Shown: positions 6,918 to 8,176 of the stretch, one piece after another | How the letters are laid out: each line of letters starts with the position of its first letter | Numbering within the stretch: position 1 is the stretch's first letter | Origin: Candidatus Gastranaerophilales bacterium | GTDB taxonomy: Bacteria > Cyanobacteriota > Vampirovibrionia > Gastranaerophilales > Gastranaerophilaceae | Direction: 5' to 3' | Length of the DNA stretch: 63,742 nucleotides | NCBI GenBank assembly: GCA_944325875.1 | Contig: CALVBU010000012.1 | Coordinates: 1-63,742 of the forward strand | Notes under the pieces: generated by a model | The model's database searches: none | Seen by the model: only the letters and a program-made list of their open reading frames with translations | What the model was told of the DNA's origin: nothing | Program-made: the position numbers and the translations under genes

Positions 6918-7709
6918 TTAATACCAATTACAAGAATCATTACTGCATAATATACTATCCAAATTGGTTATATAATCCTCTTTGGTCATTTCATATGTCA
7001 CTGGTGTAATTGAAATTTTATTATTTCTAACTGCTGCAATATCTGTATTTGCATCACTTGGTTCGTTAGTTAATTCACCTGCCATCCAGTAATATACCTT
7101 ACCTCTCGGGTCAACTCTTTTCTCATAAGTATTAGTAAACATCTTACTACCCAATTCGGTAATAGCAATTCCTGCAATATCATCAGCATCTAATGCCGGT
7201 ACATTCACATTCAAAATTGACTTTGCTGGGAAAGGGAAATCTTTCAACTTTTTAAGCAAAGAATTAACAAACTTTCCTGTATAAATAAAATCATCATAAT
7301 CAGCCTGCATACTAGCTAATGAAACTGCTATACTTGGAATTCCCATCATAGCACCTTCCATAGCGCAGCTTACAGTACCTGAATAAAGAATATCAGAACC
7401 CAAATTAGGACCATGATTGATTCCTGAGATTACAATATCAGGCTGTTCTTCCGGAGATAAAATAGCATTTATTGCAATTTTCACACAATCTCCAGGCGTA
7501 CCAGTTGTAACCCAAGTTCTTTTTGCCCCAGTAATAGTTTCCAATTCTTCTACTCGCAATGGCGTATGTAAGGTTAAAGAATGTCCTGCCGCACTGCGCT
7601 CCCGATCCGGAGCAACTACATAAACCTCATGATCTTCTGCCAAAGCTTTTGTCAAAACTCTGATACCATTTGCTGCAATTCCGTCATCGTTTGAAATTAA
7701 TACTTTCAT
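6918..7709 (-). CDS. surE: 5'/3'-nucleotidase SurE
   Basis: SurE dephosphorylates nucleoside monophosphates and helps stationary-phase survival; it is a cytoplasmic, divalent-metal enzyme. The 263-aa sequence has the metal motif LISNDDGIAANGI at the N-terminus, APDRERSAAGHSLT at ~40 and SGINHGPNLGSDILYSGTV at ~95, all diagnostic. Its length matches the family. A GGAGATAT-type ribosome site is present. It stands alone in front of tRNA-Leu and ends in its own terminator. The C-terminal tail NDSCNWY is unusual but short. Confidence 0.96.
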   Translation of the reverse strand: MKVLISNDDGIAANGIRVLTKALAEDHEVYVVAPDRERSAAGHSLTLHTPLRVEELETITGAKRTWVTTGTPGDCVKIAINAILSPEEQPDIVISGINHGPNLGSDILYSGTVSCAMEGAMMGIPSIAVSLASMQADYDDFIYTGKFVNSLLKKLKDFPFPAKSILNVNVPALDADDIAGIAITELGSKMFTNTYEKRVDPRGKVYYWMAGELTNEPSDANTDIAAVRNNKISITPVTYEMTKEDYITNLDSILCSNDSCNWY

Positions 7710-7857
7710 ATATCTCCTTTAATAAACTGACACTCTCTTTACCTTTATACTAATATTATACCCGTTTTCCTAACAATATCTACATGTTTCTTTATGAAGT
7801 TTTGTAAATAAATATACAAATAATAGATTTATTATAGCAATTTTATATACTAGAAAT

Positions 7858-7995
7858 TTTTTATATAAATGTAACACGAGGAAAGCTTAAATTCGAGGAA
7901 TCAAAACGAGATTTAAGCACACACACTACACTTCACACTATTTGAGGAATGAATCAAAAGTTTATTCCAAAAGCCTCTTCGGAGGCTTTTTTTTT
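7858..7995 (+). ncRNA. Candidate small RNA, possibly Yfr1-like
   Basis: The stretch between surE and a 47-aa gene holds a self-contained RNA-like unit. A TATACT -10 at 7846-7851 points to a start near 7858. Stem 1 pairs GCTTAAAT (7885-7892) with ATTTAAGC (7911-7918). An unpaired C/A-rich stretch (7919-7945) follows. Stem 2 pairs 7946-7953 with 7961-7968 with one G-U pair. A strong terminator ends the unit at 7969-7995. The unpaired stretch contains ACACTTCACAC (7928-7938), 9 of 11 identical to the ACUCCUCACAC core of cyanobacterial Yfr1, which likewise lies unpaired between stem-loops. The RNA is well supported; the Yfr1 relation is inference. Confidence 0.6.
7969..7995 (+). terminator. Strong terminator with TTCG tetraloop
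   Basis: AAAAGCCTC pairs with GAGGCTTTT around TTCG, followed by further T residues (nine in a row). It is the 3' end of the candidate small RNA. The reverse strand would also terminate the convergent 47-aa gene. Confidence 0.92.
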
Positions 7996-8032
7996 ACTAT
8001 TAACTTCTGACTCTATATAACACAACCTAATT

Positions 8033-8176
8033 CTATTTGTTTACAGTCAAAAGAATTTCTGCAAGCTTACGCCCGCCACGTTGATCTTTAAATGGAATTT
8101 CCTTTTTTGTTTCTTCAGGGGCAAAATCAGACTTCTGATAATTAATCAAAAATTTCATAAATTCAGGACTGAACAT
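8033..8176 (-). CDS. Small hypothetical protein (47 aa)
   Basis: An ATG at 8176 preceded by GGAGAATAA opens a 47-codon frame ending in TAG. The product starts MFSPEFMKFLINYQKSD, with a charged middle (PEETKKEIPFKDQRGG) and a hydrophobic end (KLAEILLTVNK). Good start signals and protein-like composition support it; I recognise no family. It converges on the small RNA and shares its terminator. Confidence 0.5.
   Translation of the reverse strand: MFSPEFMKFLINYQKSDFAPEETKKEIPFKDQRGGRKLAEILLTVNK

Follow-up and report, generated by a model that had tools for sequence, protein, structure and literature searches.

Positions 7873-7997 of the plus strand in a contig of a Candidatus Gastranaerophilales genome are, judging from the sequence, a real single-copy non-coding RNA gene, and this gene very probably encodes a genuine trans-acting small RNA (sRNA). 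The RNA defines a new sRNA family of the Gastranaerophilaceae (f1), of a known kind. Its resemblance to the cyanobacterial sRNA Yfr1, of which it was originally predicted to be a relative, is one of layout only, and membership of the Yfr1 family is rejected. The conservation of the gene and of its core, the predicted single-strandedness, the terminator and the departure from surE in diverged genera were all directly computed, and the best overall explanation, to which we give an even chance, is an independent sRNA of ~120 nt acting through a single-stranded tract. The analysed stretch of DNA, referred to here as the window, is 63,742 nt long and corresponds to contig C12 of a 2.2 Mb genome that is 99.96% complete. 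The host had been correctly guessed to belong to the Gastranaerophilales (Melainabacteria group).

The region first singled out (7858-7995) sits between surE and a conserved 47-aa ORF, both on the minus strand, with serine dehydratase subunits encoded beyond the latter. The 47-aa ORF, which shows 54-77% identity across many family members, had no match in the Pfam search. A conserved promoter-like region, a hairpin, a G-less unpaired core, a second hairpin and an intrinsic terminator follow each other in this order, and the features of the locus are the following:

6918-7709, minus strand: surE (PF01975, Pfam match), divergent neighbour lying outside the RNA and marking its usual locus.
7833-7849, plus strand: upstream element TATAGCAATTTTATATA, hardly varying among the 18 aligned homologs, which may be an activator binding site or an unusual -35 region.
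7860-7867, plus strand: -10-like box TTTATATA, conserved across genera of the family.
7873-7997, plus strand: small RNA gene (putative transcript, its ends placed from conservation and the terminator).
7878-7882, plus strand: first GAGGA motif, within ACACGAGGA at the 5' end, GAGG being invariant in the 18-homolog alignment.
7885-7918, plus strand: stem-loop 1, GCUUAAAU / AUUUAAGC, predicted for each member of the genus and for most of the 18 homologs closest to it.
7895-7899, plus strand: second GAGGA motif, exposed by the loop of stem-loop 1.
7919-7943, plus strand: G-less unpaired core ACACACACUACACUUCACACUAUUU, C/A-rich, between the stem-loops.
7944-7948, plus strand: third GAGGA motif, overlapping the foot of stem-loop 2.
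7946-7968, plus strand: stem-loop 2, GGAAUGAA / UUUAUUCC, with GGAAU/AUUCC pairing throughout most of the family.
7969-7997, plus strand: intrinsic terminator, AAAAGCCUC UUCG GAGGCUUUU plus U-run (hairpin 7969-7990, then T-run).
8033-8176, minus strand: 47-aa ORF MFSPEFMKFLINYQKSDFAPEETKKEIPFKDQRGGRKLAEILLTVNK, with the RNA on one side and the serine dehydratase genes on the other.

The two stem-loops, the unpaired C/A-rich stretch and the UUCG terminator were thus all present, as predicted. TATACT (7846-7851), first described as promoter-like, is less well conserved than the -10-like box TTTATATA, so that the 5' end of the RNA lies more likely near 7872-7875 and its length is about 120-125 nt instead of the ~138 nt first put forward. 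A TATA-like box is present in 38 of 54 homologs and a GCAAT-like element upstream in 46 of them, and TATAGCAAT is a putative promoter element of the sRNA. The sole perfect copy of TATAGCAATTTTATATA within the window is the one at 7833-7849, and the conservation of this element is close to that of the RNA. The terminator hairpin and T-run are kept in 48 of the 54 homologs, with a stem sequence that differs between species. Folded with its terminator, the RNA reaches -29.4 kcal/mol compared with -17.2 for shuffled sequences (z = -3.9, 0/200 shuffles as good); the fold without the terminator is ordinary (z = -0.8), and the case for structure therefore rests on conservation. Double changes affect 14 of 16 stem pairs in an alignment fitted to the covariance model, which leans towards the structure, and covariation is weak (one double change) in an alignment built from sequence only, because the stems barely vary.

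No plus-strand ORF of at least 24 aa overlaps the RNA, as anticipated in the original prediction, and the alignment revealed no ORF conserved across homologs. A micropeptide mRNA could be evoked, since GAGGA is similar to a ribosome site and an ATG frame of 23 codons begins at 7949; this reading is hardly credible, because the frame extends across the terminator to DNA that is not conserved, and several homologs, L015 and L016 among them, lack its ATG. By sequence, the locus is intergenic, non-coding and conserved and has its own promoter and terminator, as generally expected of trans-acting sRNAs.

The gene is kept among Gastranaerophilales relatives, its core included, as the prediction of an authentic RNA implied. 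A DNA search retrieved the element in every one of the 13 genus genomes and also in other genera of the family. A covariance model built from 13 sequences matched 127 of 286 genomes of the order, and a second one built from 45 sequences matched 153 of 382 genomes of the class, distributed in 26 of 97 genera, the latter genome count being probably a slight overcount given four doubtful matches (L271, L275, L281 and L096). All matches of both models belong to the window's own family, almost always as one copy per genome, and most of 20 weaker matches that were inspected display a recognisable core, hairpin and terminator. L096 (g33), a weak match that contains ACTCCTCAC without the remaining parts, was left out as doubtful, and a single pattern match in Mycobacterium lepromatosis was taken as chance. 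Viral contigs contained no exact copy of the 19-nt core. Identity within the genus is 96-100% for the RNA, compared with 78-88% at the DNA level for surE. In the alignment, conservation begins at the promoter-like block TATAGCAATTTTATATA followed by TTTATATA, spans the RNA and stops past the terminator, the downstream flank being unrelated between most species.

The position of the RNA relative to surE bears on its autonomy. In most loci of the family the two are arranged head-to-head, which could suggest a cis-acting leader or antisense element of surE, or of the 47-aa ORF. We nevertheless disfavour this explanation as very unlikely: transcription would run away from surE and end at a dedicated terminator, conservation is lost in the downstream flank, and surE occurs without the RNA alongside in many relatives, no diverged copy having been seen in the surE upstream regions of genomes without an RNA match. 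Moreover, in diverged genera the RNA lies beside other genes, not adjoining surE, and no neighbour is common to all these loci, which argues for an independent and probably trans-acting gene.

The core ACACTTCACAC (7928-7938) is located within a G-less stretch of the CACUUCACAC type and was found in all 18 closest homologs, where the core ACACUUCACAC is invariant. The terminator stem changes freely. A 9-mer of the core is present in 54 of 54 homologs, with a predicted mean probability of being unpaired of 0.81. The universal or nearly universal parts are the 5' ACACGAGGA, the further GAGGA copies, the G-less tract with CACUUCACA (replaced by CACUACACA in L097) and the terminator. The GGAAU...AUUCC hairpin is usual without being universal, stem-loop 2 giving way to a bare terminator in some genera. 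In RNAs of the genera g40 and g45 (L269, L270, L272, L285, L286, L095 and L101) the second hairpin is missing and the 5' stem is another one, as in GCCCGAAAC..GGG; they retain ACACGAGGA, ACGAGGACU and CUACACACACUACACUUCACA.

Yfr1 is a base-pairing sRNA (PMC2190773; PMC6778093) of 54-69 nt that carries ACUCCUCACAC (PMC2190773). Like the Gastranaerophilaceae RNA, it is a single-copy sRNA nearly universal within its own lineage, and its unpaired C/A/U core is conserved and flanked by a stem-loop on the 5' side and a hairpin or terminator on the 3' side. A true Yfr1 homolog outside photosynthetic cyanobacteria would accord with this unpaired conserved core flanked by two stem-loops, with the common phylum-level clade and with the 9/11 identity of ACACTTCACAC to ACTCCTCACAC, the Yfr1 core. 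This identity is exact as first reported, but it does not exceed what chance gives in a window of such size, six 9/11 matches occurring in the 64 kb and a shuffled tract yielding one in 3.4% of trials. In addition, the UCCU of the Yfr1 core, mutation of which abolishes Yfr1 pairing (PMC6778093), is replaced by ACUU in the RNA and all 18 closest homologs. The Gastranaerophilaceae RNA, at ~120 nt, is about twice as long and possesses an extra stem-loop, GAGGA repeats and a core expandable as repeats; its unpaired section spans ~25 nt, and more in diverged genera, compared with 16-20 nt in Yfr1, and its third hairpin is the terminator. It adjoins surE or other genes, whereas Yfr1 adjoins guaB/trxA in most, though not all, cyanobacteria. 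Porin mRNAs are among the transcripts with which Yfr1 pairs. The Rfam Yfr1 model (RF01116) retrieved nothing in the window genome, with a positive control in Synechococcus elongatus, and matched 181 of 386 Cyanobacteriota genomes, all of them, among the matches listed, outside the window's class. The proposed kinship with Yfr1 is therefore largely refuted, and true homology appears very improbable.

The window region matches no family of Rfam 15 at gathering score, and neither do 14 homologous loci; a scan of the locus up to E = 10 returned only matches at chance level (terminators and poorly matching leaders), Yfr1 not being reported among them. Neither Rfam at this locus nor the literature searched yielded an sRNA of Gastranaerophilales. 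Yfr10 and related sRNAs offer a parallel in keeping a short exposed motif while its position and structure drift, as in the diverged genera here; in Yfr10-type sRNAs a loop contains the Yfr1 motif in its exact form (PMC6778093), which the Gastranaerophilaceae RNA does not have.

Transcription, action in trans and mechanism are what we infer for this gene. According to the preferred explanation, it would be independently transcribed into an sRNA of ~120 nt from one copy per genome, in which the two stem-loops and the terminator would keep a G-less, CACU/ACUUCAC-rich tract single-stranded. This tract would be the active site. Most likely it would pair imperfectly with several mRNAs at (U)GUGAAGU(GU)-type sites, probably independently of Hfq, and the pairing would control the translation or the stability of these targets. 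The mode would be Yfr1-like, although the RNA itself is not Yfr1, and the GAGGA repeats would offer a further surface to which a protein or another RNA could bind. Pairing through the core is the best-precedented mode, and the match in layout with a base-pairing sRNA was counted in favour of this explanation. The tandem growth of the core and the repetition of GAGGA were counted against pairing, because they would also suit a protein ligand, and whether base-pairing is the main mode of the RNA appears to us evenly balanced.

Searches for targets were made with the core complement. Across the 13 genus genomes, they brought up no conserved complement of the 11-nt core, whether perfect or with G-U pairs: four genomes (G001, G006, G008 and G010) match only the gene itself, match counts resemble those of a reversed-pattern control, and the other matches examined are antisense to a topoisomerase-like gene and other coding genes or fall in repeats. 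With 18 nt and up to 3 mismatches, the complement was found only at the gene itself. Intergenic repeat-like sequences in G004 and G011 (L304, L306, L315 and L295) consist of GTGAAGTGTGAAG followed by TTCAC/CTCAC stretches and resemble short palindromic repeats; since the sRNA core has perfect complements in them, they could, if transcribed, act as sponges.

The outcome of these searches, in which no perfect conserved mRNA complement emerged, would also fit a CsrB-like mode, in which repeated GAGGA and/or ACUUCAC sites titrate a protein binding single-stranded RNA. This mode is the main alternative, and we hold it tentatively. It is consistent with the composition of the RNAs, most members having 2-4 GAGGA copies: GAGGA occurs on average 2.13 times per RNA compared with 0.16 in shuffles and ACUUCA 1.5 times compared with 0.15, with a maximum of six in one homolog, these counts being descriptions and not p-values because homologs are not independent. 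The G-free run, of about 25 nt, lengthens in diverged genera to as much as 73 nt, and genera differ in the number of copies of a motif that is itself retained. Conversely, the window's genus has one ACUUCA, and its near-invariant flanks exceed what a simple titration site needs. The two candidate partners of the RNA that were sought in the window genome, CsrA (PF02599) and Hfq (PF17209), were not detected, and hence no known protein partner is at hand; CsrA is absent with positive controls, and the Hfq search was also negative for the Synechococcus elongatus control, so that a diverged, cyanobacterial-type Hfq could escape it. CsrA sites are of the ANGGA type. The RNA resembles CsrB/RsmZ in having several copies of a GGA-containing motif in variable number, and differs from them by a host without CsrA, by the motif ACGAGGA and by one class of repeats being a G-less single strand. 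A lineage-specific global regulator in hosts without detectable Hfq or CsrA, working as a multivalent decoy in which GAGGA and (ACUUCAC)n arrays would titrate an RNA-binding protein, with an array length tuned by genus, is an idea that we regard as rather doubtful.

The RNA is among the most conserved stretches of its locus and is found in most genera close to that of the window. It provides a handle on post-transcriptional control in non-photosynthetic, animal-gut relatives of cyanobacteria, and the combination of a conserved seed-like core with expandable arrays makes the choice between pairing and protein titration directly testable.
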